This document shows, piece by piece, positions 4,240-24,366 of a DNA stretch of 64,000 nucleotides; positions within the stretch are counted from its first letter, which is position 1, and each line of letters starts with the position of its first letter. The notes below the pieces were generated by a model that was not told the origin of the DNA, did not search any database, and saw only the letters and a program-made list of their open reading frames with translations. Location: positions 6,412,083 through 6,476,082 of the forward strand of contig JAJEKV010000073.1 in the NCBI GenBank assembly GCA_021234155.1. Reading direction: 5' to 3'. This stretch comes from Isoetes taiwanensis. Lineage: Eukaryota > Streptophyta > Lycopodiopsida > Isoetales > Isoetaceae. A program made the position numbers and the translations under genes.

Positions 4240-4394
4240 GGGAAACTGATAGGATAGAGAAGAAGGAGAAATCTAGCTCAAGAGAACGCCGATGATAGAA
4301 CAATGAAGAGAGGCTGAATAAATAGGAGGAGTGATAGGACGCGCCCCCATCCAGAATGTCGGTTCTATTGCTGTCGCAATAGAACCGTGGCATT
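4240..4394 (-). repeat. promoter-like 155-bp direct repeat, copy 1 (LTR-like)
   Basis: This segment is repeated at 9495-9653 in the same orientation with only scattered changes. On the minus strand it begins TGCCACGG and contains a hairpin. It then has a TATTTAT-type TATA-like box (plus-strand gaataaatagg at about 4316-4326), followed by a pyrimidine-rich leader. The layout suggests the promoter/R part of an LTR feeding transcription leftwards into gag. Similarity stops abruptly at both ends, so full LTR boundaries could not be drawn. Confidence 0.6.
4360..4387. repeat. perfect 11-bp inverted repeat, 6-nt loop
   Basis: CGGTTCTATTG at 4360-4370 and its exact reverse complement at 4377-4387 flank the loop ctgtcg. 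The corresponding site in the 9495-9653 copy is a decayed version of the same stem. It sits at the upstream end of the LTR-like repeat. Confidence 0.8.
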
Positions 4395-6166
4395 CCTAGG
4401 ATGGGTCCTATGATAGGCATATACTGGCCGATAGAAGAGGAACAAACTCAAAAAAAAAAACTACGCAGCATGGAAACTGAAAAGAAGAGAAGCTAAAGAG
4501 AAACATAGTATAAAGAAAGGAAGAAACGAGTCTACAAGGTCACTGGAAAAGAATGCATAGACAAGGCTGACGGCAATCAGAGTAAAACGAAGGAAGAGGA
4601 AACTAAGAAAAAATGGAGGAAAAAGGGGATAAAGAGAAGACAGAGACAAGGAACAATGAAGAAGCAGAAAGAGCAAGTAATGCCGGAACGCAAACAATGG
4701 AATGAATAAAAATGAAGGAGAACACGATGGAGGAAAGCTATGAGAGATGGAAACGGGAGCATAAGAAGGAAGAAGACAATGGAATAAATAAAAAGAAGAG
4801 ATGAGGGAAGGAACTTATGGGACAACAGCAAACAGAGCCACGAACATGATGTCATCATCAAAGTAATGATCTCGAATGACTAATGTCCAATAAATACTAT
4901 ATCAACAAAGATACTATAAAAGCAAACTATCCTAACTAGCAAAAGAAAAAGACCAAGAAGACAAAGAAACCACAAGAAGGAACCAATGTGACAAATATAG
5001 TAAGAATGTCACTAGAGTTTAACGAAACAATAAGCTAAAGAAAAATAAATTAAGGAAACAATGCAAACACAACCAAAATAGAGAAATGATATCAAATGGA
5101 GCTACCGAGATAATGAGGAGTGTAATGAAGCATGTAGAATCTAAGAAAAGCGATAGAAAATATGGAATAAAGAAAGGGAGGAACGAGTCTACAAAGGTCA
5201 CCGCGAACAAAAATAGAATGCAAAAAATGAAGTTGATGGGACACATGGAACAAGTGGAGTGAATTCACAATAGAGACAAACAAACGGATCAATGCGAAAA
5301 GACATAGAAACAAACACCCAAGTGACCCAAGGGACCCAATATAAAACACCTAGAAGCAAAAACAAATCGACCGATAGACTGGAACAAATGGAGAAAAAAG
5401 GCACCAAGTACTTTAAAAAAGGGAAAATATGGAAAAAAGATGAGCAAAGGAGAAAAAAGCACATTTAGATAATGAAGCAATGGCAAATGGATGGATTAGA
5501 ATAGCAAAAACATGTCCAGGGAATACATAATAACCGGAAGGATGATATCAAGAAAAGAAAATGTAACCTAGAGCAAAAAGATAACCGTGGATAAACCTGA
5601 CTAAGCATAAAAAATTTTAAAGACTTGGCAAAGGTGCACAACTCGCAGCTAGAAGCATAGAAAAGATATGCAAAAGACCCGAGTGAAACAACTAAAACAA
5701 TGACATAAAAGAACTAGAGGTACCAACCACAGAATGGCAACAAAGGGATCAATATCTATGCTAAGCAAAAAGTCAATCAAGCAAAGGACTAAATGTGGCA
5801 TGCAAAAGAACTTATGAAAGCATAAGAAAAAATGCCATAAGGACAATGGGTTAATGAAACAATGAACAAAAGCTTACCAAGCAAAAAGACAAAACTAGAA
5901 ACCCATATGGCTAAATCGAAATAGTTGCAATAACCGGCACCAGAGACGAAAGCTACCGGGCGAAATGCTAGAGGTAACATCGATAACCATACAAAGGTAA
6001 CATGATTGGAACAACACAACCACTAACAATATACATGATATCCTATGCATGGATCAAAGATCAAATGAAACAAATGAGTTATAATGCTAAAAAAGGATTA
6101 GAGAAGCGTAATGCATTAGCGTAAAAAACCGATACGACATGTACAAAGCCTAAAGTACAACAAAAG

Positions 6167-6597
6167 CCATGTAGTACAAGCATCATCTACCTGATGCAGA
6201 GGACCAAAATATGCATAAAACAAACTGTGGTTGAATGTTGAAGGCTAACGGACAAAGAAGCAACATGGGATACAACACCATAAACCACTCTAAAGTTCTC
6301 CAAGGCCCGGTGGAGGTATCTTCAAAAGACGATAAAGATGATTAGGACAACAAAGTCCACTTAACAAGATACGTAATATCCAAAGATGGCACCGCCTTCA
6401 AAAAGAAACCAATGAATAAGAAACAAATGCTAAGAATGAATCAATACCCACACATTTCTAGCGAAGAAGAATGCATCAGATGAAACCCTAAAAAAATGCC
6501 CATGGCACAACGAAACTATGAAGTACAAGCATGATCTACCCAATGCACATGACCAAAATAAGCCTCAAACATACTATGCAAACGTTGAAAGCCAAAA
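6167..6597. repeat. diverged direct repeat, ~345-bp period
   Basis: 6167-6252 and 6512-6597 align over about 85 bases, sharing gtacaagcat.atctacc, gaccaaaata and tgttgaa.gc. Flanking text is weakly similar, suggesting a tandem unit of about 345 bp that has decayed inside the T-rich spacer. Confidence 0.55.
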
Positions 6598-8220
6598 GAA
6601 GAATATAACTGAAACTCAGAATCGAGGATATGAAATTATCGAACATGAATGTCACCCATCAACTACATGTAGAACCTTACATACCAAGAATTCAACAAAA
6701 AAGAATGCATAGGATTCCAAACCTCAGTGAAACCTAATACAACAAATAGTGAGGCAAAAGCACTCCCCGAGCACGTTTTTGGTTAACGACTCCAACTAAA
6801 TGCACAACTCTGCAAAAATAAGAGAAGACGAAAGAACAGTCTCCTACGAGACCATGGTCCCCCTGAACCCATAGAACATGAGAGATGGGCAATCATCCAA
6901 GCCAGAAACGGCAAAACAACTAGTAAGATGTGTAGAGAGAGCAAGATCACACGAAAAAAGGGTGAACAAATTAAAACTGACCCAAGGTCGTATAAAAACA
7001 AGTAAAGGCAATCGCGGGTCACACAAGAAGGTGCCAACCACAAGATCAATAGTAAACCAAAAAATAACCCTACAAAACACGATCAACCCAGAACACCTCA
7101 AAAAGTAGAATCAAAAAAAAAGAGATTGTCAACAAAAAAAGAGAGTAAAACAAGATGTCAAAAAAGAAAAGGAAATAACCCCTAGCACGGTCCGACAATT
7201 GAAAACCCAAGAAACTATAGTGGTACCCCCAAAACAGTAATGTAGGCATCAAAATGAAAATACTAGATAGCTAAACAAATGATACCTGCCCAACACGTGC
7301 ACTAATAGGCTCTGTGGAAACACATTAGAGCAAGAGAGCAACAACTTGATGAGTCATAACCAATGGCAAGAAGAAACCCCTAGAATAAACTCAAAGACTC
7401 AAACAAGAATGTCAATCAAAATACAAGACTAGCTGGGGTGGAGACCTATGAAAGACACGCACGTAAGTAACATGAAAACGAACCACCTAGCTATGGAGCA
7501 TTATACAACATAGCGAAGCTAAACTAATAACAATAAACAATGTTCAACAAACAAAAATCGCGGAGTCCGTACACGCCCAATGCAAAGTTTGGCAATCGAC
7601 AAAGGGTGACGAATGAAATGAGATAACAAAAATATACCTAGGTTGGGCTAAAAATCCACAAAATAAAGAAAACCCAATGCAACCCAAGTTATGGGCATGC
7701 TAAGCAAAAAGAACTGGACAAATAAGGAATAAAATAACCAAATCTACATACCTCTAGACCCCGCAAAAAAATGCGCCATCGAATGTTGATCTCTAATGTT
7801 ATGAAATCGAAAGGAACCCAACAATGTCGATGACATAATGCCCGCCCTGTGAAAATGAGTCGCTCATGTTGTACCTCTAATGTTGCCAAATCAAAATCGA
7901 GAGCCCAATATTGTCAACCACATAATAATCGACAATAACAAAGATAAGGCCGAAAAACAAATATAGCATAACGAACAAAGCACACCTCTACTAGAGCAAA
8001 GTCTAACCTTGGCAAAAATAAAACATAAATCATAACCATGACAACAATGATGGTTATTGACTTCAAACTTTGTTCAACAAAAAGAAAAAAGGCGAGCATA
8101 ACGGAATATGGGAGGTGCCACCATTGTTTCCAGGGTCCGCAACAGAAAGGACTTTGCAAGGAGCATTGGCAAGAGAAAAATGTGTGAATGAAATGAAAGA
8201 AAAAACCACCGAGAAAAAGG

Positions 8221-8375
8221 CTCAAAACACATGGATCAATAAAGAAACAAATTTGTAAGGCGAAAATTAGACTAATCCCAAGACCATAAGCACAGAGTAG
8301 AAAGCTCAGAGCACATGGGTCAATAAAGAAACGAATTTATAAGGCTAAAATGATAATCCCAAGACCACAAGCAGA
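8221..8375. repeat. ~82-bp tandem duplication
   Basis: Two adjacent units (about 8221-8300 and 8303-8375) share gctcaga/acacatgg, tcaataaagaaac, aatttgtaaggc and aatcccaagaccataagc. They differ at roughly one base in eight. Confidence 0.7.
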
Positions 8376-9494
8376 ACAATTAAGTCAGATGACAAACCAT
8401 CATTAATCTAAGAGAAAGCCCAGTATGGTACCATTCAAAAGAATAGAATCGTGCACAAGACCATAACCGAATCAAAGAGAACCATATAAACATGGGACAC
8501 CAGGTGCTGGCATCCCATTACTAAGCTACAAAAATAGAAAAGATCAAACTGAATCGAGGCTGGGCGAAAGGATCGGCCGATTTCATGCAGCAAGGCCATG
8601 CCCAAATCCAGCGCATGCTTTTCAGATCAGGATGCCACCGCCATCAAGATGCCATCGCAATCTGGAGATCCAGTATTTCCCATCCACTATTGCAGATCCG
8701 ACGCCAAAGCCCTCCAAATCCATTGCACTTCAGTAGCATGGCCAAACCTGGAGTTGCACGATGCCAAAAACAGAATAAAAAAATCTTATAGCCAGTCTAC
8801 CTGCTGTAATTGAGACCTCTGTTCTCTGATAACTTTCCCATAGTTTAGATCGGACAGTTTCGAATCTGTTAAAACTGATGCAAGATTCGTTAGTACATCA
8901 AGATTTGTCTTGCGAGTGTCTTAGGTGAGATAAAAGAAATCAAGAGCCGTAAATTATGGAAACGAAGATAAAAAAAAGCTAGCTATCACTTGAAAACCAT
9001 GCCCGAGATCGGTTTATCATGAACGCATTGAAAACCACAGATTGAGCAAACCCATTCACAAAAAACAAACCGATACCCACCTAGGCAATCCCGTAAAAAA
9101 GAAAAACAAAATCAAAAGAAAAACCCTAAGAGATCGCTATGCCTTATCCACAGATAGATCTGATCCTTTCCCAAAAACGGACCCTAAACTTCACAGAGAT
9201 GCACACAAATCGATTCACACCTAATACTGGAAAAAAAGAAAACCAGATCCAAAGAAAAACCATCATAGATAGCTATGCATCATAAAAACCGCCATCATGC
9301 CATGAGCAATGTGAGCCGTTTAAAACCCTTAAGCCATCGCCATGAATCATCAAACGAGCCATGATACCATGAGTAGCTATTGCACCGCTCCATAGTGTAC
9401 ATGGCTACCATGAGCACCGCACGCGACCGCTCCATAGTGTAAAGCAACCGTAAATGCACCCTCGTGTGATAGAGAAGAACTAGTAGGTAGGATA

Positions 9495-9653
9495 GGGAAA
9501 CCGATAGGATAGAGAAGAAGGAGAAATCTAGCTCAAGAGAACGCCGATGATAGAACAATGAAGAGAGGTCAATAAATAGGAGGAGTGACAAAGGGACGCC
9601 CCCATCCAGGAATGTTCGGCTCTATTGCGACAAAGAATAGAACCCGTGGCATT
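9495..9653 (-). repeat. promoter-like direct repeat, copy 2 (LTR-like)
   Basis: This is the second copy of the 4240-4394 segment, with the same pyrimidine leader, TATA-like box and upstream stem, although the stem here has mismatches. Together the copies bracket the 5.1-kb T-rich spacer, as expected for partial LTRs of a non-autonomous or rearranged element transcribed leftwards. Confidence 0.6.
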
Positions 9654-11600
9654 AACTTCTCATAAGTTAACTAAGCTCCAGCTTCACTCTCATCTTTGAA
9701 ACATTTTTCAAATTTCAAAGCTTGCATCCTTTCTTGAAACCATAATCCCCGTAATAGTCTTCAAATATTCTCAAAAGTGGTTAGCACTCATGCCGGAATC
9801 AAAGGTAGGCAAGGGAATTGGACATTCAACTCAAACCGGTATGGCATGTTTTGAAGTAAGCTAGTTGAGAAACTTGAAGGCAATGGCCTTTCTCCAATGA
9901 TCCGGATACATCAACATCTTCTAATGGTTCTGTTTCTGCTGGAAATTTTGCTTTGGAGCCATGAGTTCGGGAGATCCGTGAAGATCTCTAGAACTTCCAA
10001 GATGTTGACCCTAAACCCGGGCTTAAAGGTCAACCACAAGGAACCAATTCAAGTTTTCACTCAAATTGGGGTTAGAACCTCCCGATCACTTGAGGTGATC
10101 ACCATGCAAGGAAATCCCAAAAACAAGTTCAAAAAAGTTCGAAGTTCTATACCTTTCCCATTTCAAAAAATAGTACCTTTGCCAAAACAAATGTGGTGTC
10201 GAGATGCGATCGATTTTTAAGTCGATGCAATAGACTTGGTCAAAAAAAGTGGTAGTTAACCAACAAGAAAACCTCCCGACCAAGTCGAGACTTAACTGTG
10301 GGGAGTTCCCAAAGTAGATAGGTTGAAATGATTTTAGGGAAGAGGGGCAATCAATCAAATCTTCATTTGATATGTAAAAGTATTTTTGTGGCTAGATTTG
10401 GCAAAATATACCAAAACCGCCCAAACCCGAGAGCAATTTTTTTTGAATTTGAGCTATACTTGGTATTTTTGAATGATTCCAACTCCTTTGACCGCAGACA
10501 TGTGTCCTAAGGATAGATGGCAAGTGGTCCAAAGGAATAGAAAACACACTAGAATTTTTTCAGACTATTTTGTAGCAAGAATTGTAGAATAATATATCGT
10601 AGATGGATTTGACAACTTGGCAATCGATTTGAATTGATATGGAAGTAAATATATCATGATAATGTAATATAAGGATGCTTCATAGCTTTAAATCACAGGA
10701 AAATAATCTTCTCAAGTCAATAAATAATTTTTGAAGGTAATGTCAATCGATCTTGTGGATCCAATTGAGGAGAGCTCAAGAACTTCAAGGATCGCCCGTG
10801 ATCTTGCTCAAGAATGATCAATGTAGGATCTGAATACTTCTGGGCCTTCAAATTTTTCTCTGCCTTCGCTTTCCCATGTATATAGATTTAGATTTTAACT
10901 GCTCCTGATCTTAGAGCTTAAATTTAGGCTTGATTGGATGCTTAGGGGCGGGAATACGGAAGTAGGTAGTTTTAGAGTCCAAGGCTTCCATCCTGCAAGT
11001 GATTCGAAAGCAAATGCTTTTTTTCAATTTTAGGGTTCTTTCACCAGATTTTTTCCAATTATGCTGACACGGTGGGTTATTTTTGGGAGTATAAACCAGG
11101 AATATGTCAGATTTAGCCATTTAGAAATGTTAGGCCATGGTTTCAAAGGGTGCCTTATAAAATAATTAGATAGATAGATCAATTGAGGAGATGGCAACCC
11201 TAATTTTTGAGGAATATGCTAGGCTTAGATACCATGCATTGGGATATTCCATGGGTAGCATGAATATTTAGGGCACAATGGTGGACAAAGCAAAGTGGTC
11301 ATAAAATTCCAAGCTAGAAATGGGCTAGGGGTATTTATGAAGGTGTGATAAGAGTGGGAAAAGGGATATGAAATAAGGAGGCAAAAAGAATTAAGCAATC
11401 AAGGTGTGATTTGGCAAAAAAAATGAACAAGGGAAAATATAAGCATAAGGGGAATATGACTAGGGAAATGGGGGTAAGAATATGGATAAAAATGACTAGG
11501 AGGTGGAATCTAATGCCATGGGATCTTCCAAACTTTTAACTTCCAATCTTCAAAAATTGTCTTCCAAACTTCATAACCCAGAATCTTCTAGAGCATATTC
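9654..11600. other. AT-rich intergenic DNA, no gene recognised
   Basis: Short open frames exist on both strands but none shows a known domain, codon bias or conserved neighbour. No RNA gene or clear repeat was seen. Confidence 0.5.
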
Positions 11601-11619
11601 TTGACTAAGCACTTTGACC

Positions 11620-14249
11620 TTAAATAAAGTACCTCATGTGAGTTTTGAACCTTGAGCACATTGTTGTCTTGTAAAATGAACATCCTTTGACCTTCATATC
11701 AATGTTGACTACCAAGTCCTCTTTTGACTTAGCCTTCCTAACTAGTATGTTGCCCTTTGGGGGCAACACCTCCTCATTACATGTGATTGGATACTTTGGA
11801 AGAGGTATGCCTCTAGGTGCATTGGTCCCCTGAGTTAGATGCAGCTCCAACCTGGGCCGCACAGGCAAGATACGCGCCTCACTTCTATTGATCATTACAT
11901 GGGTGACGTAGTATTGAAATTCCTTAACCATTTTCTTGCTAACCCACCCCTGTTCTTCATAAGCACCCGTGGAGATATGTGAACTCCCCTGGATCTGACT
12001 TTGGCTGTACAAGCAGCTTGGCAAGTGGACAGATCTCAAGAACATGACGATGTGATACACCTTTACAGTTGGCATGCTTGCAATCCTGCTGAAAAGATCC
12101 GTGTATTTTTTCACCCAGGCAGTGTTGAAACTGCGCATGTCAATAAAAACCATTGTAGCATTTTCTGATACTTGCCCCCGCACAAGAATACCAGATTTTG
12201 TTACTGCTTGCACAATGTTTCTCTTTTCTTTCTGTTTCCGTGCTTCATCTTGTTTGAGTATAGCTAGAATAGCTTCTAGGAAAACAGTCGGAAGATTTCC
12301 CTGGACGTGATCCTTGTTATGGTTGGCCTTGATATAATCAAAATCCATACCTGCTATATCAAGTAGCCTCTCTTCATTGAGTTCAGGGAATAGTGCCACA
12401 AGCTCCTCCATGCTGCCGTATTTTTTATCTAGCAAGCAATTGGCATATGATAGCACCCCACGGTGCATCAAGGTTAGAGTTCTGAGGTCTAAGCCCCTCT
12501 CTGTTTACAGTCATGCCTGCCTGTATATCCAGGCTGCACCTTCAAAAATGTCTTTCCTTCAAAAATCTCGTCCATAAAAATCTTTTGTTGGCTTTTCCGC
12601 GTTCCCATGATCATCACGGTAGTTTTCGTGGTGCTGCCCACTTATTTACAACCTCCATGAACTTTGCCCATGGTTCGCCGTCGGCATAAACGTAAACCGC
12701 TGCCTTTAAGTTCTTTCACCTTCAATGTAGTGGTCGCCACTTCAACAAAATCCTCGTAATGAAATGTTAGTTAGATCATGGTCGCGATTTGATTCAAAGC
12801 AAAAGGTGAATAGGCTAACCTTCCAAGCCGATGTTATCGGGCGTGCCGCTGGTCCTTGTGGAGGGCAACCGAAAGCCTTGTGCTGATTATGCAGTTGCTG
12901 AAGCTTCTCCACTAGTGGCTCTCTGTACACAGTGTCTACAATTATGTCGTTGCATTGAATAGATAATTGGATGTACTCCCTGTTGGACAGGTTTCCATTG
13001 AGCACCCGCGTTCTTCTCTTGGCGTAAACTTTAGCAAACTCCAGGCGTTGTTCAACGCTGCCCATCACAGAGCAAAGGATCTGAGCAGCAAATATGCTGG
13101 GTTTCCAGAAATAATGTAGAATTTTTTGTTGGCAAGCTCCTCAGGTCTCGACCAAGTAATTATTTTCCTGCGAAAGAAAGTAATTTAGTATTTTAATACA
13201 TAACACTAATGTATGTATACAAAGTACTTACTTTATGATGGGGTCAAAAGGCACAACATCTGCCGGAGTAAGAACCTCTGTGGGGCACTTCTTGAAGCTC
13301 CTTATTAGAGTTTGCACGTGATCGTTAGAACGAAATCAGTAAGGCCATTGTAGCCGGAGCCGTCTCGCAATCGAAGATACTTACTTTTGTGAACCAATTC
13401 ACTCCCATTGTATAATATTTTTAAACACTTCGAAGTTTTTTGCTTTTTTCTTCGCAAAGCTTTTTTCCTCGCCAGGTTGAACATCAGTTCCTCAGGCATA
13501 CGAGTAGCAGAAGGCCAAGTTATTGGAGTTGGAAGTGGCTGTTGGGACACCTGATGAGGTAGGCGTAGATGACGTAGAAGGCTGGCTCTTATCATCTACA
13601 TTTAACTTCCGAAGTTTAATCTTGAACGTATTTGTCTTCTTTTGTACTGGTTCTTACTTTTCAATATAATGTACTATAGGGGGAGGCATGAGCAATTTCA
13701 GAGCAGTAGGATCCACAACTGTTGAAGAAATTGGATTAGCAGAGCAAGTCACAACTGGTTCTTTCGGTGCAGATGATTCACGAACTGCAGCCAATGGAAC
13801 AACAGTCCTTTTTTCAAAGAATCGCGACGCAACCAATTTGTATCCATAATGCTAAGGGTAGCTTGTTGTCTTTAGTAGCCTTTAAGGCACAAGAAGGAGG
13901 CTTCTTATCTACCGACAATCCCTTTCTGCACTTGCTGAAGCCCACAAGAAGGTCTCTGTTGCACTTGATACCAGAGAGAGACAAAGAATCATATGATGGC
14001 AGAATCCAACCATAGCCCTTTGCACTGGGTTGGCACACCCTTGCCACTAGCCGACTTGTTATGTTTGCTTGCGACCATGATGGAAGGGTCGTAGTTCTGC
14101 CATCGCAGAATGTACTCTACAAACTGCAACTGCTGCGTGTCCTCTACGCTACATATAATAGCATCCCTGACGTTATTCTTCACCCTCGCAGACATGGCAA
14201 CGATGATGCCCAATCGTTTCAAAGTCATCCGCCCCTTTCCTATCCCCAA
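11620..14249 (-). pseudogene. decayed gene of unknown family, divergent partner of the DUF7869-like gene
   Basis: Minus-strand frames join into one protein-like path of roughly 800 codons that I do not recognise. 13989-14249 is the N-terminus (MSARVKNNVRDAIICSVEDT). Around 13500-13660 is a Ser/Thr/Pro-rich linker and a lysine-rich stretch. 13232-13330 reads HVQTLIRSFKKCPTEVLTP. A 64-bp intron (13168-13231) separates this from WSRPEELANKKFYIISG and VEQRLEFAKVYAKRR (12990-13160). Then comes YVYADGEPWAKFMEVVNKW near 12650, and a clean 283-codon C-terminal frame (11620-12471). At least five frameshifts are needed. A real intron plus continuous sense across frames argues for a once-functional gene rather than chance ORFs. 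Its upstream region holds six palindromes like those upstream of the gene at 16480. Confidence 0.55.
13168..13231 (-). other. 64-bp GT-AG intron in the unknown minus-strand gene
   Basis: The minus strand reads ATAAA|GTAAGTACTT at the donor and a pyrimidine-rich CTTTCTTTCGCAG|GAAAAT at the acceptor. Joining the flanks keeps one frame (DVVPFDPIIK then KIITWSRPEEL). The splice signals match plant consensus. The length is near the lower limit for plants. Confidence 0.7.
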
Positions 14250-14482
14250 GAAGAGGCAGAGGTCCTTCCCCGCGACGCCTTTGATATGTGGTATTGCTCA
14301 GTGCAATTTCTATGCACCACTTCCGACTTTTGTCGGGAGTTACTATGTGCATGGGTTCAACGTTTGGCCCTCGAAAGAGGTCAAGTGCTGCATGAAGATG
14401 ATTAAAAGGTTAAGGACATCGCCATGGCTTTTACGTTTAGCTAATTTTAAGTTAACAAACATCTTAATACAAAAGAGCCTCC

Positions 14483-14847
14483 AAGGAACGCGACCGCGAT
14501 CCTTTATATAACTATATGCTACTTATTATAAATCAACCCCTCAAAGAAATCGCGGCCGCGATTAGTGAGGGCACTTGAAACCTCAAACGTATAAATATAT
14601 ATGTAAGCAAACATGTTAAAACAAAAGTCCTTCCAAGGAACGCGACCGCGATCCTTGGAAGCAATGCAAACAAGAATGTCCCTGTGTTAGGTTCTCAAGG
14701 ATCGCGGCGGCGATCCTTGAGATAACTATAGGCTATATGTTATTGATAAACCGCTCTCAGAAATCACGCCCGTGATTTCTGAGAGGACTATAGACCTTAA
14801 ACTTAAACACAAAGAGATCGACAGCATCGCGGTCACGATCCTGTCGA
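14483..14847. repeat. array of six GATCGCG-type palindromes
   Basis: Six inverted repeats follow one another: 14483-14504, 14548-14563 (AATCGCGGCCGCGATT), 14631-14660, 14693-14722 (13-bp perfect arms, 4-nt centre), 14754-14785 (15-bp perfect arms, 2-nt centre) and 14818-14847. They share a core close to ATCGCGnnCGCGAT, but the outer arms differ: AAGGA, TTCCAAGGA, TCTCAAGG, CTCTCAGAAA, TCGACAG. Each pairs with its own partner. Intervening text shows that units 1-3 and 4-6 form two copies of a ~215-bp higher-order repeat (ataactata...tgct near 14508 and 14723). The array lies 5' of the minus-strand gene. Confidence 0.85.
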
Positions 14848-15049
14848 GCTCTTTTGATTGAAAATATAAGATGCTAATGGTGTGAATTGACTAGTGCTAA
14901 AAAAAAGGCGCGGAAAATACCTTCTTTAAGGAGGGTTGATCGAGACATGAAGGCTGAAAAGTTTTTCAATGCTGGATTATTCAAGGCGCAAGGAGATTGT
15001 AATGAAAAAAATTGCGAAATAAATGGGCTTAAGTAGGCTCCAAGATCGC

Positions 15050-15300
15050 CGGGTCATCGCCATCGCCGCCATAAATGCCATGTCATAATTGCACGCGGTC
15101 GAATTGCACGCGGCGAATTTAATGCCGGCGACACTGGGCCATAAATGGGCCCTCTTAAATGCCCTGTCATAAATGCCCTGACATAAAAGCCCTGTCATAA
15201 ACGCACCTGTCATAAATTTCCCCGTCAGAAATGCCCCGCAGCATTAAGACGGGCGCGAAAAAATATTCCCCGTCAGACAGAAAATTCCCCGTCATAAGGA
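15050..15300. repeat. degenerate short tandem repeats, GC-rich
   Basis: Variants of cataaatgccctgt recur about every 15-16 bases from 15062 to 15240. Then ccccgtcag and ccccgtcat units run to 15300. A (tttgaa)n tract lies at about 15415-15446. No coding sense was seen in the divergent intergenic region 14850-16250 apart from these repeats and the next one. Confidence 0.6.
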
Positions 15301-15699
15301 CGGGATACGGCTGTCAGAATATGCTTCGTACAAAATGTACGATGACTGCGACAAACCGCAAAGGGCCCGGGACGTGAGATAGTTGGAGATGTCGACAGGG
15401 ATAGTGCTTGTAATTTGAATTTGAATTTGAATTTGTAATTTGAATTCGACAAGGACATTGATTTGAATTTTGAAAAGAAATTTGCCCGCCCATGCCACAG
15501 TGTTTGGAGCAATTCATTCCAAACAAGTTCACAGGGAATTACTAGTTCAGGCGCTCGAGAGATTTCTACAGAGGCGCAAGGGAGGCGGCTACTGGCGCTC
15601 ACCATAATCTAGCAGCTAGACTACATATAAGTGGCGAATACAGGCAAGAACCGGGAGGATTTGAAATGCATGTTAAAATTTACTGTTCGAATTCTGTTT

Positions 15700-16145
15700 C
15701 TCGAATCGTTGCATGCCTTTATAGGGTCTGTGCATAACTATTCCATCCTACTGTTGCATTCTTGTTGTTTTAGGGATAGTAGTATTCTTCTGGATCATTT
15801 GTTGCATGAATTTGATAAGTCACTTACCTTCGATTGCATTGTTCTATTCCATGAATTGTTATATGCCTTTAGTAGGTCTATCTAGAATAATTCCATTCTA
15901 CTGATGCTTTCGTCTAGTTTTTGGGACAGTAATATTCTTCTGGATGATTTGTTGCATGAATTTGATAAGTCACTTACCTTCCATTGCATTGTTCTATTCC
16001 ATGAATTGTTATATGCCTTTAATAGGTCTGTCTAGAATAATTCCATTCTATTGTATGCCTTTGATAGGTCTGTTGCTTTTGTATGAACTATCTTGCTACA
16101 TAAAGGAAATGCACGTTGCTGCATAAAGGAAATGCACGTTGCTTG
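15700..16145. repeat. 150-bp tandem repeat, about 2.5 copies, plus 22-bp duplication
   Basis: The string gaatttgataagtcacttac starts at 15808 and again at 15958, giving a period of 150. The flanking text ttcttctggat.atttgttgcat and tgcctttagtaggtct repeats with it, including a partial third copy ending near 16080. A further 22-bp duplication, aaaggaaatgcacgttgct, lies at about 16100-16145. Confidence 0.8.
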
Positions 16146-16254
16146 ATGCTGTTAGAGAACTTGCAGCATATCGGGACCTTTTTAAAACTCCTAATTTTTG
16201 GTACAGAAGATTAGGACTGTTAAGCATATCGGGAGCTTCCATCTGCTCAACCAG

Positions 16255-16447
16255 ATCGCGGTCGCGATATATTGCAGTTGTCTTGGAGTACCTGGCTCTT
16301 ACTAGACCGTGAGTAGGTACCTTTACTGTGGACCGTGAGTGCTGAACCAGATCGCGGTCGCGATCTAACGCAGCAATTTCCAGGTGCGTTGAGTTGTCCC
16401 ATCTTTAGATTGACAGATAGTGCTCCACCAAATCGCCACGGCGATTT
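16255..16447. repeat. three GATCGCG-type palindromes upstream of the DUF7869-like gene
   Basis: 16255-16268 is ATCGCGGTCGCGAT, 16349-16366 is AGATCGCGGTCGCGATCT and 16430-16447 is AAATCGCCACGGCGATTT. The third is variant in sequence but still palindromic. They end 33 bp before the ATG at 16480. A small duplicated gaccgtgagt lies between the first two. The same core is found in the 14483-14847 array 5' of the divergent gene. Confidence 0.85.
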
Positions 16448-16479
16448 CTTACAGCATTCCATTATATTTTTATGTCAGG

Positions 16480-19400
16480 ATGGACGAATTGAGGTCTATT
16501 TTATTCAATGGGACCAAGGTGGGGGAGGCTCGTCTACACAAGTTCACAAAGCACCATAACTTGCCCTTGCCCGAGGGTTTCGCTGTAGTGTCTGTGGAAG
16601 TCATTCTTGATGGGAGCATTCCGTTGCCTTATCCGGAACCCGAGATTTCAATACTTGCAGAATCCAGAGGGAGTTTTATTTTGTGGCCCGAGAGAGATGT
16701 AACTGGGCTTCAAGATAACACTGCCGTCTCCACTCCGCCTAGACAGATAAAAAAGGTTGTTGTTAGAGGATCCCACGACTCCCTTTGGTTCACTACATCG
16801 TCAAGGGGGCATTTCTAGGGAAGAACTTCTCGAGAGGAATTGCACACTTTTGCATGAATGCTGTGATATGCCTTATGGCTTGGGTGTGATCATCTTTACC
16901 GACCCTAATCAAGCAGTTGCTGATACTAGATTAGGTGATGACTTCCTGGCTGCCACCTTGATGAAGCTATGCCCCATGCCAGAAAGACCGTCAATGAGAT
17001 GCCAAGCTTGTGCTGAAATGCCACAGTTGCACGACTTGGTGAGGTCGTCTAATGCTTTGGTGTTAGTAGACAATGTTGTTGTGTCGACACTCATAAAGAC
17101 TGTGAGAGAGACAATCATTGAAGAAGAACCCTATGCCATGCAAATTGAAGTTGAAAAGGCACCCAAGAGGATGTACAGAATGGTGAACCGGAGTCCACGT
17201 ACAGCTGCTGTCACCACTAAAGCTGAGAGAAAGATCACTGCAGCTTCCATTTTAGACTTTACATCTTCGCTTTATTGCATGCGAAGATGCTGCGCAAACT
17301 TCTCCACAGCCGAGATTAGGTGCATGCGTAGTTTCTTTTGGAACTTGAGTGCTTCAGACAGGACCACATTTGTTTTTAACATGTTAGACGTTTATTCAGA
17401 GAACGGACAGGTCAAGATGCTCATGCTAAATAACAAGCAGGTATGTTTGAAAGCATGGCATATAGCCTATGGTATTCCAATGTCCACTTTCTATAAGTGG
17501 CGAAGACTTTTCCTTGCTGGTCATAGAGGAACATGGTAACACGGGCTCGAAAAAGCCGAGGCCTCACACTCTAGCAGGAAAGGTCGTGCTGTCTATGTAC
17601 ATAGATGAGAATGTTGAGACGATGCCCCACAGATCGAAAATCACTGCTGAAGGGGTGAGAGAGAATGTGAAGAGGCTCCCTTCTGTCCTAACCAAAAAAG
17701 ACATTCTTCATGAGGTGGACGCCAATGTGATGGAGATGACAGGCAAGCACATCTCTCATTCTTCATTCTCACGTGGGTGGAAGCTAAATCACACAGAGGT
17801 TGCAATATCAAAGAGGATAGCTTTCTCTAAGTGCAATACCTGTATTGTAATAAAAGAAAAAATGGCTAAGACGAGAGATCCACGGGAGAGAAGAGAATTG
17901 CAGATTGAAAGGAAGGCACACATGACTGCCCATATCTCTTGTAGGAGCTTGTACTGGTCATGGAGAGCTCTGTCCCATCGATCACCGGATCAGGCGCTCA
18001 CTATCATACATGATAAGATGGACCAAAACAAGACTATGATTCCAAGACTGGAGAAATTAGCAAAATCAGTATGGAGAGGTGAACGCTTGAAAGTTAGTGT
18101 GACTGGTGCACTGATGCATGGCCACGGCACATGTGCCTTAGGACATTTCTCACTCGACCTTTGGAAGGATGATTCAAACTTTCATGTTGGTTCCTTGAAT
18201 CATGCTATCAAAACACTGGAGGATACTTCCGAAGATAATTGGGGCCATTTGAGAGAAGAAGGTCGGCCTGAGGGCATGTGGGTCAACTCACTCCTCGACA
18301 GTGCGGGGTTGAGGACCAAAAAAAGCAATTGCACTGGGCAAGACTTTGTAGCACCTCCTAAGCAACCAGGGCACCTTAAGATGTTACCTAGGCAGCTCTA
18401 CTTGCAGCTAGACAATTGCGCCGGGCAGAACAAGAACAGATATATCTCTTCTCTTATATATCCTACCTTGTGTGGTTGGGTGTTTTTGATCAAATGCAGC
18501 TTGGCTTCATGATGGTAGGCCACACTCATGATGACATTGATGCACTATTCGGTAACTATTCAACGTTAATGCGCAGGTCGGATGCTCTAACTATTCCAGA
18601 ACTAATGCAACTCTTCCGAGAATGTAGCACAAAGGCACCGGACACCATACCTTGTTACCTTAGGGTTCCCAGGATTGGAAGGGTTTCATCGAAGGATACA
18701 TTCACGATAAGAAGGACCGTTTGGTTGGTCACTTGGAGCCCTTATTGTTTAAGTTACGCATGAATGATAGGTGGGATAGAACGTATTACAAGATGAGACA
18801 CAGGCATAGAGAATGGTTACCGAAAAGGGTATTGGATGTGGAAAGCGGATGATGGGTTTGCCAAAGATACCGACTGGCTCACCCAAGACTGTCAAGCCAT
18901 ATGCAAGCCTCAAGGACATAGGAGCATTGAGGTCGTCCATTGTGAAGTACATGGTGCATTGGGCTAATATCTCCAGGGCTGGTGTGAACTCGTGGTCCAA
19001 TGCCTACATGAACGAGGTCATAGACTCTTGGTGCAAAGTGATGCGTGTGCTAGGTGAAGTACCCTCGGGCAATGCAGAAATTCAGAACTTCTGGCCTCGA
19101 ACAAGGCAAGTTGTGCTTGACGAGCCTGAATCTATTCAGGTCGATCGATACGACGCTCCAACTGCCTTTGTTGGACCTGCTAAGGATAAACCCAAGAATG
19201 CGGTGGAAATATTTGACCCATACCAAGATGTACGAGAAGGTATGTTTTACGCTTGTAAGACCGCGGATGCATGTCCTACATGGGTAGCCTATGCAGAGGA
19301 GGATCCTATACAAGACCCCCATTGTCCCTCATTATAACGAGGTTTTTGTGTCTTGGTGGGAGCACGTGGCTATGAAAGGTACCGCGATCACGCTCAATGC

Positions 19401-19613
19401 AAGATTCGGGGCTGGCGGCATAAAAAGTGGAGGCCGAATTTTAATGACAGACCACGTTATCAGCCTCTCAAAACGATAGACTATGCTTGGTTAGTTGAAC
19501 CGAAGCCATTATTGGTTGTGATCCCAGCTAGCGTAGGAATCCAGGTGCAGGAACTATTGGCTAAAGAGGCCTCAGAGGACGGAGATGAAACTTGCGTCTT
19601 CAAGGTACATTAA
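16480..19613 (+). pseudogene. DUF7869-like transposase/integrase-related gene, frameshifted
   Basis: The path starts at the ATG at 16480 (MDELRSILFNGTKVGEARLH) and changes frame near 16780, 17530, 18480, 18670, 18800 and 19340. A Cys-containing helical region (17260-17500, RCCANF...VCLKAWHIAYGIPMSTFYKW) resembles the N-terminal module of these proteins. The core follows: SVTGALMHGHGT (about 18100), LYLQLDNCAGQNKNRY (18400-18445), GFMMVGHTHDDIDALFG (18505-18555) and WKGFIEGYIHDKKDRL (18676-18725). DNCxGQNKN followed by GHTHxDID is the hallmark I associate with DUF7869 proteins, which are multicopy and transposon-like. An RNase H-like catalytic fold is an inference. Upstream lie three palindromes and a TATA-like tatatttttatg at 16463. 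Confidence 0.72.
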
Positions 19614-19727
19614 AGTAGTTATTTTATATTGCTCTCTGCTTTTTTCAGATTAATACAAGTGCTCTTATGCATTACTATATCTTATATACCAGAACATCAC
19701 TACAATATACATTGTTGAATAGGTGAT

Positions 19728-19970
19728 TCACTCATCATCAACACCTGCTGAGGTGATCCCTGATATCTCGTAGCTATTGCGCTCAGGAAGCCAAATAAGG
19801 TGGATCATAACATGAGTTAGCCCGGGGCAACGAATCTCAACACCATTAGCTTTGGATTGCAGGTAGGGATCAAGAAGAATACTCCTTATTTGGCAACCGA
19901 CAAGATCATTGTAGCTCATTGAGCACTTGATCGCCTCGATGTGGTGCACAGAAGATGGCGAATAATCCAT
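19728..19970 (-). CDS. small protein of unknown family, tandem paralog A
   Basis: This intact frame of about 80 codons starts at the ATG at 19970 (MDYSPSS). That is the position matching the start of paralog B, so it is preferred over an upstream in-frame ATG at 19997. About 45 of 72 aligned residues match the protein at 20371-20613, including YNDL, LDPYLQSKA, EIRC, a WLP motif and the identical C-terminus ITSAGVDDE. There is no signal peptide, membrane segment or known domain. The gene converges on the DUF7869-like gene, with 115 bp between their stop codons. Retained frames in both copies suggest function. Confidence 0.55.
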   Translation of the reverse strand: MDYSPSSVHHIEAIKCSMSYNDLVGCQIRSILLDPYLQSKANGVEIRCPGLTHVMIHLIWLPERNSYEISGITSAGVDDE

Positions 19971-20005
19971 GGGAAATGAATGACCTCTACTGCCCAATGG
20001 AGCTA

Positions 20006-20014
20006 CTTTTATAG
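20006..20014 (-). promoter_or_regulatory. TATA box of small gene A
   Basis: The minus strand reads cacTATAAAAG 36-44 bp before the ATG, implying a very short 5' UTR. Further upstream (about 20080-20100) three GTAC cores cluster around gtacacgtacaag. GTAC is the core recognised by plant SBP-type factors. Confidence 0.6.
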
Positions 20015-20370
20015 TGAAGTAAAATTATTGATGTGAATTATTGGTGTAGATTGTAGCGCCATTATTGAGCATGTACAAGAGTCATGTACACGTACAAGTA
20101 TAATGCATATTTTGTATGGATATATGTGGCATGTGAAATCATGCTTTGTATCTTGGAATTTAGTAAGGTAAAAGTATTTGTGCTTGAGTAAATTAGGTGT
20201 GCTTGAAATTAGGGACTGCTTGCAGAAAAAAGTGGAGGTCGAAGAGCACACCGTTACAAATTACTCAGGTTCGATACATCAAATAATATTCATTATGCTT
20301 ATACATCCTTACATATTTCAGAAGTGCTTATATCATTATATCCTTAACAGGTACACAAGTCATCACTGAT

Positions 20371-20613
20371 TCACTCATCATCAACACCTGCTGAGGTGAT
20401 GGCATTCAGCTCATAGATCTCCTGATCAGGAAGCCAATATAGGTGGATCACAACACGAGTGAGCTCGAGGCAACGAATCTCAGGACCATCAGCTTTGGAT
20501 TGCAGATAGGGATCAAGTTTGACACCCTTTCTCACGCATTCACCAAGATCATTGTAGTTCATGTAGCACTTGATGGTTTGGATGTGCTCCGGACGAGGAG
20601 ACAAGGAAGCCAT
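20371..20613 (-). CDS. small protein of unknown family, tandem paralog B
   Basis: This intact 80-codon frame begins MASLSPRPEHIQTIKC and ends NAITSAGVDDE. It is the homolog of the frame at 19728-19970, with start codons 643 bp apart. The duplicated block covers about 19722-20210 and 20368-20850. Upstream sequence is about 95% identical between the copies over some 135 bp, whereas the proteins are only about 62% identical. Function is unknown. Confidence 0.55.
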   Translation of the reverse strand: MASLSPRPEHIQTIKCYMNYNDLGECVRKGVKLDPYLQSKADGPEIRCLELTRVVIHLYWLPDQEIYELNAITSAGVDDE

Positions 20614-20648
20614 GGGAAATGAATGACCTCTACCACCGAATGGAGCTG

Positions 20649-20657
20649 CTTTTATAG
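20649..20657 (-). promoter_or_regulatory. TATA box of small gene B
   Basis: It has the same cacTATAAAAG and spacing as gene A, in an almost identical upstream block with the same GTAC cluster near 20715-20740. Confidence 0.6.
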
Positions 20658-20870
20658 TGAAGTAAAATTATTGATGTGAATTATTGGTGTAGATTGTAGC
20701 GCCATTATTGAGCGTGTACAAGTATCATGTACACGTACAAGTATAATGCACAATTTGTATGGATATGTGTATCATGTGACCTCATGTATCTTGGACTCAA
20801 GAAGTAGGTGAAAGTTATTGGTGCTTGAGCAAATTAGCTGTGCTTGAAATTCTCAAAATTGCGCTATTCT

Positions 20871-22150
20871 CTCCAATTAATGAAATCATGCTTAATTGGC
20901 TAATGTTTTATGTCCTCTTTGTGGCCGGGGGTTTCCGCAGAAGAAAATGTGACACAAGAGCTGTACGACATCCATATAAGACGCTTATGTGAACAATTAT
21001 ATTTTGATAAATTAAGATAACAGTCTCGTGGAAAAGGGTCTTATTCTAGGTAATATCTTGTCCATATCTGCTCTTGATTACCTGTTTCGATATAAAAAAA
21101 GTTCAGATTTGCAGCTAAACCATGCGATAGGTCCCATAAACTTGCAACAAGTAACTAAGACTGGATAAAGTGCCAAAAAATGAGTTAGTTCCAGAAGATG
21201 ATGCAATATTTACAATTCCTAGTAATTCTTTGACTTGAAGATAAGTGATTCACTTGGAGATAATTGGATGGTTCGACCCCAACTTTTCCTTTGCTACTTA
21301 GCCCCGCAGAAGGCGATTTACACCACTCCAGAATGCTATCTGCAGTCTGTGTATTCGCAAAAGCTTCACCGTTCAACCTGATGATGCCAAAAATGTTCTT
21401 TGAATTTATGCGATTACCATATCCACTTACAATTGCCAGTTTAGGACCGATGGTGGGAATATCTAAGCATATATACTAGCATAATGTAGCGAATATGCTC
21501 ATCTCGACATATATCGAGAATATTCTCGATCCACGAACAACAATAAGCTTAGCGAGTGGGTTTGCCCTTGAGGGCAACCCAAAAATCACATTATTCTGCG
21601 AGATATAACAAGTTCTTTGTCGCCCAGAGGGTTGCCCTCTAAACCGGAAGTGAAGAAAAATAAAAAACTACGTTCAAATGCACATCAAAACCACATAATG
21701 CAACGTGCAACTTTGATTTCTTAGTAAATATATTTTTGCATCGTACATTATGTGCTTCATATCCGATAGAAACAAGAACCATTAAAAAGGGAAAAGGCGA
21801 ACATATTTGACAAAGCGAAATCAATAAAATGCCTCGGTAAACTTCAAAACAAAGGAAGCTAGAGGTGGGCCGAGAGAATTCGATATTGGGATCAAAATGA
21901 AGGGACAGGCTATGAAGAATCTTTGCGGCGACCCTTTTGCTATGATTTTCAATCCGCCTTAAGATATTTTCAACTTTCTACCTGCCCGTGATTTACGTGA
22001 GTTAATTCTCAAGTCAAGCAAGGTGCATTGGGAGAAAGGCAGGATGGAAGCAAGGTTACGAGTAGGGAACTCCTCCTCTCAATCGATCAGGCCTTGAGCA
22101 CATGTGTCTGAATATGATCGAGCCAAATTAGGAAACAAGCGTGAACTCAA
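20871..22150. other. intergenic, no gene recognised
   Basis: AT-rich DNA. The only structure noted is a near-palindrome, gggtttgcccttgagggcaa at 21558, with a reverse-oriented relative at 21626-21644. Confidence 0.5.
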
Positions 22151-22316
<166 letters not shown>

Positions 22317-22337
22317 GTTTCCTACATGCAAGCAAAT

Positions 22338-22369
22338 TTTTATCTCTCGCTATCTCGTGAGAGATAAAA
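22338..22369. repeat. 11-bp hairpin beside the TC tract
   Basis: TTTTATCTCTC at 22338-22348 pairs exactly with GAGAGATAAAA at 22359-22369 across a 10-nt loop. The region 22400-23500 that follows shows no gene. Confidence 0.8.
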
Positions 22370-23507
22370 TTTGTACATATTAAAGATAATTATCTCTCAT
22401 GCCTTAACCCCATTAGTTAGTGATTTTTTTGTTGGCGGGACCTTAGCCGAGGCGGGCGGGCCGAGGCAGGCAGATTTTTTTTTTTCCTTAGGCAGCTATG
22501 GCAGACACTTTTTCTATCGAACCTCATTATTTTTTTGGGGCTTCTACCTAACTTCTGTGGCTTCTATCTAGTTTTTTACGTTGCCGGAATGGCCCGGATT
22601 TGAGGTCTTCTTCATGTGTATCTGATGCCCTGATTATAAGTTCCACTCCATAGGCAGAACTGGATTAAAAGGTCGCCCTCTTATTCAAGATTTATTTTCT
22701 GTAGAACTTTCAAATGGCTATTTATTTTTGTTTGAAACCTGTTGGAGATCCTGTCTGTTAGAAACCTGAAACCTGTTCCTTCCTGCACCGGCCCGACCTT
22801 CAACCACAGGCGGAAGCATCCAACTGATCACTCCAGTTCGTTTTGCAAGCTTAGAGATCCATGGGCTCTGTTTCTTCCAAGATGTGCTTTCGGGCTTCAT
22901 TTGAGGGGGTAGGATTTATCCTGGCGGGAATAGAATTGCAAGGAAAAAAAACAACACAACCGGATCTGTGAAGGCTTCCATTTGGATTGTTTTGCTCCAA
23001 GCTGTAACTAGATTTTTGGCAGTTGAAGGCTTTTATGGATCGAGTGCTCAAAATCCCATGCCCCACCTGCCCTGCCCTGCTGTGCCCAAATAACAAAATA
23101 TGATCCAAGCTGTCTAGGTATTTTCCACTTTCTAGCATCTAGCACATCATCTACTCAAGCTCTTCAATCTCTGTAACACCCAAATCCTTTTCCCCGCCTT
23201 CAAATTGCCGGATTCCATCTCGTACCCGGATTGCACAATACACGGGTTCATGTGTTTCCTTCTCACCCTAAAAAGAAAATGCGCCGCGAATTTTTCATAT
23301 CCATAGCCATGGGGCATTTGTAGTTGCCCGGTGCCCATACCGCCTGCATACGATGTGCTTTCGAAATGCCATGCCCTGCTTTGCCTTGTCCAATATCAGG
23401 GTATACCCTGCCCGCAAAAAATAGAAGGGAAAAAGGCTTAACTGGTGTCGGTTAATGGGAAATGGTCCGCGGCCCGGGTTAAGCCATAAATCCCTCTCAC
23501 ACGAAAA

Positions 23508-23535
23508 GGTGAGAGTGGGGTTTTCCACTCTCACC
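23508..23535. repeat. perfect 11-bp hairpin, 6-nt loop
   Basis: GGTGAGAGTGG at 23508-23518 and CCACTCTCACC at 23525-23535 flank ggtttt. It lies about 70 bp before a CCCT/CT-rich tract and a LINE fragment. Confidence 0.85.
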
Positions 23536-23606
23536 TCTCTCCCCCCTCGCCCCCTCTCTCATGCTCTCTTAAAAAATTTGGAGCATGTGGGAGGCTCGCT
23601 CTCCCC

Positions 23607-23661
23607 TCCCTCCCTCCCTCCCTCCCTCCCTCCCTCCCTCCCTCCCCTCTCTCTCTCTCGT
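23607..23661. repeat. (CCCT)n then (CT)n simple repeat
   Basis: About ten ccct/tccc units are followed by ctctctctctctc. It immediately precedes the LINE coding remnant. Confidence 0.95.
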
Positions 23662-24366
23662 GAAAGAACACTATATCATGTACTTGTGCAGTCAGTCATC
23701 CTATATAGATGTGCCAGGTCTAGCAATAGATACATGGAAGCGGGTAGAGAAAGTTCAAAAAAAGTTTTTAAGAGCTGAATTGGGAGCTAAAGCTCAAACA
23801 CCATACGATATGCTGCTTCAGAATGCGGTATGTTGCCCTTGGAGTCGGAGGCGCTGTGTAGGCTGCTCACGTATCTTTGTAAGATACAGTTTGAAATGAC
23901 AGGAGATTCTCTCCTGCGTTTGGCGTTGGAGGAAACTAGACACAAAGGATGGTTTGTTGACATTGTGATATGGATGAGAAGATGGGGAATGGATATAGGA
24001 GAGCTAAGTGCACATCGGGATGATATTTGGACTTGGGTATATGACCATACCATGAGGAAGAACTGGGGTGTCCCAGAGGTAAAGAAAAGAATTTTCTGGG
24101 CAATCTATCAATCCTTCATTACAGGGAAGCAAAAACATTTGAAAGAAAACCTATCATTGAACATTAGACATCTAATTAGCAGAACGAGACTTAGCTCGCA
24201 CAGATTTGGAGTGGAGATAGGGAGATGGAGTGACATCCCTCATGAGGTAAGATTCTGCAAAATTTGTGATATGCAAGAAGTGGAGGACGAACAGCATGTG
24301 ATCATAAGATGTCCATCTTTTGCATGGCTTAGGCATAAGCATTCTATAGAATCAGCTTTTTGCTAG
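23662..24366 (+). pseudogene. LINE (non-LTR retrotransposon) ORF2 C-terminal fragment
   Basis: Two plus-strand frames (about 23680-23840 and 23830-24366) form the region after the RT of a plant LINE. DTWKRVEKVQKKFLRAELG and AQTPYDMLL are followed by helical sequence and the terminal zinc-like motif CKICDMQEVEDEQH with IIRCPSFAWLR. This is the usual CxxC...EDExHxxxxC signature near the end of ORF2. One frameshift near 23830 splits it. The endonuclease and RT catalytic parts are missing (5' truncation). The 3' UTR has aataaataaa at about 24610. Confidence 0.8.

Follow-up and report, generated by a model that had tools for sequence, protein, structure and literature searches.

Palindromic site clusters before both divergent genes of a DUF7869 transposon in Isoetes taiwanensis as candidate protein-binding sites

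A transposon with two divergent genes

The palindrome array that we investigated belongs to a DNA transposon whose termini are short inverted repeats, and it separates two divergent genes there; the window, by which we mean the whole 64-kb stretch of Isoetes taiwanensis DNA analysed, holds most of this element. Copies from elsewhere in the genome align from the left terminus, found in c908 and c919, through a minus-strand gene, the array and a plus-strand gene to the right terminus at window position 20893. Pieced together from these copies the element measures about 10.6 kb, 9.1 kb of which lie in the window; no single whole copy occurs among the stretches compared, and c919, although complete at both ends, is missing the central part of the right gene. 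On the left, the homology of the window with other copies ends at about 11767, and c908 and c919 continue for about 1.45 kb to the left terminus. The right terminal inverted repeat (AAGCATGATTTCATTAATTGGAGAGA read inwards; 20868 to 20893, minus strand) matches this left terminus of c908 and c919, an end that the window does not have. The terminal inverted repeats read AAGCA..GATTTC(A/G)TTAATT(A/G)GAGA, with mismatches in some copies; the left end is present in c908 and c919, and the right end in the window, c919, c1034a and c1082b, of which c1082b duplicates the region of the window. In c919, alone in having the two ends, TAAG stands on both sides, a putative target-site duplication recognised by eye. 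The copies thus share terminal inverted repeats as class II elements do, and the element that carries the array is a DNA transposon present in many copies in the genome.

The left gene (11767 to 14352, minus strand) is broken by stops and frame changes, and its start is placed at the ATG at 14352 by inference. No profile family, ParB and N6_N4 methylase included, scored above the cut-off in the pieces of this gene that were scanned. Its C-terminal piece, which is present in other copies only, has a weak likeness to N6_N4 DNA methylases (PF01555) in three copies, with E values of 0.038, 0.057 and 0.0064 that all fall short of the cut-off; in the c908 piece the unrelated family SPOB_ab is slightly ahead of PF01555 at E 0.033, and the PHROGs methyltransferase match of the gene has an E value of 0.36. 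A stretch reading SGNH looks ParB-like by eye only, without profile support, and the single-sequence fold prediction for the piece at 12745 to 13140 was poor (mean pLDDT 50).

The right gene (16480 to 19610, plus strand) is broken by frame changes and encodes DUF7869 (PF25273), the sole Pfam family above the cut-off among the scanned pieces of both genes; pieces from the window match it at E 5.5e-13 and 6.4e-20, and copy c1034a matches at 6.9e-40. The Pfam entry names no function, and DUF7869 was not named in the literature searched. A sequence search of PDB chains with the DUF7869 piece of the window gave no match at E up to 1, and viral contigs gave no pattern match to the DUF7869 piece. The gene product is probably a transposase: its motifs LQLDNCAGQNKN and MVGHTHDDIDALFG, taken together with the mobile context, suggest that they may form part of an RNase H-like (DDE-like) transposase core. 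A helix-turn-helix match in the right gene (HTH_23, E 0.062) is sub-threshold, and no DNA-binding domain reached the cut-off in the scanned pieces of either gene.

Several further repeats lie in and around the element. At least 19.7 kb of the window (4509 to 24248) recurs about 132 kb further on in this contig (c1082b) with an identity of 92.7-94.0%, the length being a lower bound because the match reaches both ends of the stretch compared. A different long imperfect palindrome, CCCCATCC..CGGTTCTATTGC/GCAATAGAACCG.., is found at 4340 to 4405 and again at 9595 to 9655, about 5.26 kb apart; the two perhaps mark the ends of another element, and the counterpart of the second in c1082b is more perfect. 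Between 3000 and 10000 a strong A-over-T skew, up to 0.53, extends over several kb. Between the two promoters of the transposon, 15156 to 15236 is a tandem array of about 5.6 copies of the 14-bp unit TAAATGCCCTGTCA, with a related stretch in copy L025, and upstream of the right gene a 150-bp unit is tandemly duplicated at 15740 to 16058, with matching secondary alignments in several copies. Near the right terminus a direct repeat of about 480 bp occupies 19724 to 20210 and 20367 to 20851.

The palindromes and their common core

The original prediction described six inverted repeats with a common core, and both base-by-base reading and a repeat search confirm them at 14476 to 14850: each has an ATCGCG-NN-CGCGAT-like core, in agreement with that sequence at 10-12 of the 12 positions, and arms of its own (no strand is assigned to these or the other core sites). 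Their centres fall at about 14493, 14555, 14645, 14707, 14769 and 14832, in steps of 62-63 bp with a single gap of 90. P3 (14628 to 14663; CTTCCAAGGAACGCG-AC-CGCGATCCTTGGAAG) has 14 of 15 pairs, P4 (14690 to 14725; TCTCAAGGATCGC-GGCG-GCGATCCTTGAGA) has 13 perfect pairs around a 4-nt centre, and P5 (14752 to 14787; CTCTCAGAAATCACG-CC-CGTGATTTCTGAGAG) has 15 perfect pairs around a 2-nt centre, in line with the originally described arms of up to 15 bp and centres of 2-4 nt; the z scores of their predicted DNA hairpins are -5.8, -7.1 and -7.0, respectively. The other three are weaker or interrupted: P1 (14476 to 14511; AAGGAaCGCG-AC-CGCGATCCTT, interrupted; -5.9 kcal/mol, z -2.4), P2 (14538 to 14573; inner AATCGCGGCCGCGATT and outer CCCTCA/TGAGGG; z -3.0) and P6 (14815 to 14850; GATCGACAGcATCG..CGATcCTGTCGAgCTC, interrupted; z -3.1). 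When scored at +1 per pair and -2 per mismatch, 14400 to 14900 contains five palindromes that reach 8, P1 not being among them, and three that reach 11; across 300 dinucleotide-preserving shuffles of the same stretch the mean number reaching 8 was 0.07 and none reached 11, with a top score of 10. Older direct duplications inside the array relate 14482-14591 to 14696-14805 (75%) and 14448-14504 to 14600-14656 (86%). A search for RNA families over 11700 to 20950 returned none at E up to 1.

The same core recurs at other places in the element. Matches to at least 10 of its 12 positions with a spacer of 2 number ten in the 64-kb window, and all ten fall within 12775 to 16445: the six array sites, three at 16255, 16351 and 16432, and a degenerate one at 12775. 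Other spacers give six further 10/12 matches, which are scattered. The three sites upstream of the right gene are R1 (16244 to 16279), which has the same core (ATCGCGGTCGCGAT) with weak arms and a hairpin not above shuffles (z -0.4), R2 (16340 to 16375; TGCTG..AGATCGCG-GT-CGCGATCT..CAGCA; z -3.0) and R3 (16421 to 16456; TGCT..AAATCGCC-AC-GGCGATTT..AGCA; z -2.7), the last ending 24 bp before the ATG at 16480. An outer TGCT...AGCA is common to many sites, those of the right promoter included. The degenerate core (12775 to 12788) is the window counterpart of sites that are intact in other copies: c908 and c1082b have ATCGCGGTCGCGAT there, with TGCT and AGCA further out, and c919 has TGCT..TAGCA. 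Further sites lie near the left end, at 9935 and 10045 in c908 (terminus 9703) and at 10157 and 10272 in c919 (terminus 9925; 3-bp spacer at 10272), that is, in both copies one site is 232 bp inside the terminus and a second about 110 bp further in; a core scan of the right end of the element saw no subterminal sites.

Across the genome searched (1,658,258,908 bases in 1110 contigs) the exact core occurs at 2244 sites, compared with 9 for a reversed-pattern control. Among the first 50 distinct core sites listed, 34 have a neighbour within 2 kb. A spacing of 34 bp is seen six times among these 50 and one of 63 bp four times, and six spacings fall in the range of 1200-1846 bp; these values resemble the steps of 62-63 bp in the window and the 1.43-kb gap between its two promoter clusters.

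The different arms were also said to pair each with its own partner, which proved correct for the middle arms on average and wrong for P1 and P2 individually. Over 12 sites (nine of the window and three of other copies, with the degenerate site at 12775 replaced by its intact counterpart in c1082b), self pairs numbered 6.83 of 11 versus 4.69 cross pairs (permutation p = 8e-5), and with P1 and P4 removed 7.0 versus 4.92 (p = 0.0008); as the sites were chosen by hand and some are related by duplication, these p values are only a guide. For two sites a foreign right arm is a better partner than the site's own: that of P3 for P1 and that of P5 for P2. The excess of self pairing lies at arm positions 7-13; at positions 14-17 cross pairing is about as good as self pairing, which points to a shared motif.

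Change among copies and between subfamilies

A search with the 501-bp array region, scoring 40 of 54 candidates, yielded at least 56 matches, to which some copies contribute a second one. The aligned set comprises 40 places including the window, with longer stretches around several. In most of the 40 aligned rows the sites hold their positions; some rows lack single sites or have extra ones. This constancy within most copies of one larger element shows that the palindromes are not separate insertions, and we reject the possibility, named beforehand as one that would count against the original prediction, that they are independent MITE insertions. MITEs and foldback elements likewise contain inverted repeats, but the Isoetes palindromes are fixed in place within one larger element and do not form the short non-coding elements, each inserted separately, that make up the MITE class. 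On contig C1006, the part matching window 13905 to 17274 recurs head to tail every 3.3-3.4 kb at 386-406 kb (L041, L042); this contig has five array matches in one orientation and three more, in the opposite orientation, at 359-368 kb. Here the double promoter with its palindromes has been turned into a tandem array.

Counts of CpGs, of divergence, of changes at mostly paired arm positions and of the P4 change described below leave aside L025, L033, L037, L038, L039 and L040 as partial or rearranged. Counts of broken and kept pairs over 17 positions per side, and the comparison of subfamilies, use 31 rows in three groups, with L034, L035 and L036 additionally set aside; the subfamily majority sequences come from 36 rows in four groups, of which group D (L034-L037 and L039) has rearranged units and was not relied on. 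Several copies in the alignment of 40 rows have scrambled cores. The part of PMC8566536 available to us describes the Isoetes taiwanensis assembly as nanopore reads polished with Illumina, and part of the scrambling may be uncorrected long-read error, which would inflate the counts of broken pairs.

In the 31 rows of the three subfamilies, counted over 17 positions per side with the cores, pairing was disrupted by 242 single changes, survived 13 double changes and was lost through 15 further double ones. At the arm positions that are mostly paired, 222 changes were one-sided, and double changes preserved the pair 17 times and abolished it 11 times; 7 of the 17 are one and the same change in P4. 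A search for compensatory substitutions, which the original prediction had suggested, produced one clean double-sided case, the C.G to G.C change in P4 (7 of 32 rows, probably one shared event), against the 242 single changes that break pairs. Mismatches do accumulate freely in the arms, an outcome named in advance as adverse to selection on pairing, though dead copies would decay anyway: today's broken copies would drift whether or not a working element is under constraint, so these counts only weaken a structural reading. Of 49 single changes at mismatched positions, 16 created a pair, close to the third that chance predicts, so that no arm-to-arm correction is visible in the present copies. 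Cores diverge from the majority by 11.8%, arms by 10.2% and the remaining positions by 10.0% (34 of the 40 rows). In the same number of rows, cores retained 609 of 773 CpG cells (0.79), arms 63 of 68 and the remaining positions 276 of 372 (0.74); core CpGs decay at about the same rate as others, which lends no support to the special CpG retention that had been claimed for the cores.

As a proxy for ancestral working elements we compared the subfamily majorities. Cores differ at 2/84 (A-B), 4/84 (A-C) and 2/84 (B-C) positions, or 2.4-4.8%, and flanks at 12/255, 30/228 and 31/228, or 4.7-13.6%, with Fisher p values of 0.53, 0.040 and 0.003 that are uncorrected for three comparisons sharing data. 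The arms, with 12/132, 10/132 and 13/132 differences, are not significantly different from the flanks (p 0.12, 0.12 and 0.32). A kept core with ordinary arms favours a site that is read as sequence over one that is read as structure. Pairs that differ between subfamilies do so on one side, except for one compensated pair at P4 position 11. Nevertheless, 75, 77 and 78 of 102 positions are paired in the three subfamilies, so that pairing as a whole was neither gained nor lost; shared ancestry could be the cause of these similar totals. In group C the arms of P5 (TGCTCTCAGAAATCGCG-GC-CGCGATTTCTGAGAGCA) reach 17 bp.

What may read the sites

We favour, with moderate confidence, the reading that each palindrome is a putative recognition site with dyad symmetry for a dimeric (or tetrameric) DNA-binding protein, which the transposon itself most likely encodes; the left-gene product and the DUF7869 protein would be the candidate binders. 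Each site would offer an inner pair of half-sites, ATCGCG-NN-CGCGAT, and many an outer pair, TGCT...AGCA. With clusters preceding both divergently transcribed genes, six sites on the left and three on the right, and further sites near the left terminus, binding would control both promoters and might possibly mark or fold the element for transposition. The pairing of middle arms with their own partners would then be a leftover of an origin by inverted duplication combined with dimer symmetry. The fixed core sequence and spacing, with all ten spacer-2 matches of the window confined to 12775-16445, argue for such binding sites, as do the core being the part least changed between the three subfamily majorities, the 2244 exact cores against 9 in the control with their clustered spacings, the outer motif common to sites at positions 14-17, the left-end sites, the terminal inverted repeats together with DUF7869, and the sub-threshold HTH_23 match in the right gene. 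Against them count the lack of a DNA-binding domain at the cut-off in the scanned pieces of either gene, the self-pairing of positions 7-13, which a fixed binding motif does not require, the core divergence of single copies (11.8% versus 10.0% for their neighbours), and the A-B comparison, in which core constraint is not significant.

An alternative explanation is that the array is a relic of mutation, its palindromic units having arisen by inverted duplication or template switching and then been tandemly amplified, with neither arms nor array under selection. The older direct duplications in the array (75% and 86%), the tight 34-bp spacing among listed core sites elsewhere in the genome and the free decay of single copies are all consistent with such an origin. 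However, local amplification alone leaves unexplained why the same core is found at two promoters and near the left terminus, and why it changed so little between subfamilies; changes at mismatches, pair-making in only 16 of 49 cases, also give no sign of present arm-to-arm correction. We therefore regard this explanation as possible but doubtful. Somewhat less probable still is that the sites work by extruding as cruciforms, or by folding into RNA hairpins within 5' leaders, and that pairing and not sequence is selected. The self-specific middle arms, the strong hairpins predicted for P3-P5 (z -5.8 to -7.1), the compensated change in P4 and the similar pair totals of the three subfamilies would fit. 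However, pair-breaking single changes far outnumber pair-keeping double ones (242 versus 13), differing pairs between subfamilies are one-sided but for P4 position 11, the arms are not significantly off the flanks, R1 folds no better than shuffles, and the best-kept part is the core sequence, which pure structure does not need. The selection on a cruciform or hairpin that the original prediction proposed thus goes unsupported.

A bolder combination, in which more than 2000 bipartite dyad sites across the genome, their middle arms kept self-complementary, are read as extruded cruciforms by a methylase-like protein of the element, in a lineage with a presumed transposase that is so far just a domain without assigned function, strikes us as a long shot. 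We give even less credence to a host factor, either a repressor or the methylation machinery, binding the sites in place of a transposon protein: the CpG-dense core could be a methylation target, but its CpG retention is close to that of other CpGs.

The binding-site reading has a likely parallel in plant CACTA (EnSpm) transposons, the only elements that came close, by title, in the literature searched on transposon palindromes. The passages of PMC2613891 that we consulted describe 14 potential stem-loops of inverted subterminal motifs in the soybean element Tgmt*, the largest formed by 17-bp motifs, with 12 stem-loops at one end, 2 at the other and two sub-motifs; a plant DNA transposon carrying arrays of short inverted motifs with stem-loop potential is thus on record, contrary to the original statement that no such plant element was known. 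The same passages state that TNPA, a transposon protein, recognises the subterminal repeats of Spm/En (PMC2613891), and the Isoetes sites probably work like these TNPA sites, by analogy, but placed at two divergent promoters. The repeats of CACTA elements are subterminal, whereas the large Isoetes clusters are internal, before the two genes, and only two sites lie subterminally, in c908 and c919, where they are some 230-350 bp from the left terminus. The Isoetes element also differs in its termini (AAGCA..GATTTC), in its one testable duplication, of 4 bp and not 3, and in having DUF7869 and no tnp2-type domain above the cut-off in the scanned pieces; termini, duplication and domain all place it outside CACTA/EnSpm. 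Target duplications of 4 bp are made by the Sola superfamily, and the TAAG of one Isoetes copy resembles these in length. Sola appears as a DNA transposon superfamily in the part of PMC4455052 available to us.

What looked like a structural oddity thus becomes a testable regulatory architecture, in which corresponding dyad sites occur at the two promoters of a DUF7869 transposon with many copies. With 2244 exact cores in one genome, whether the arms are selected as structure or just inherited could largely be decided by counting.
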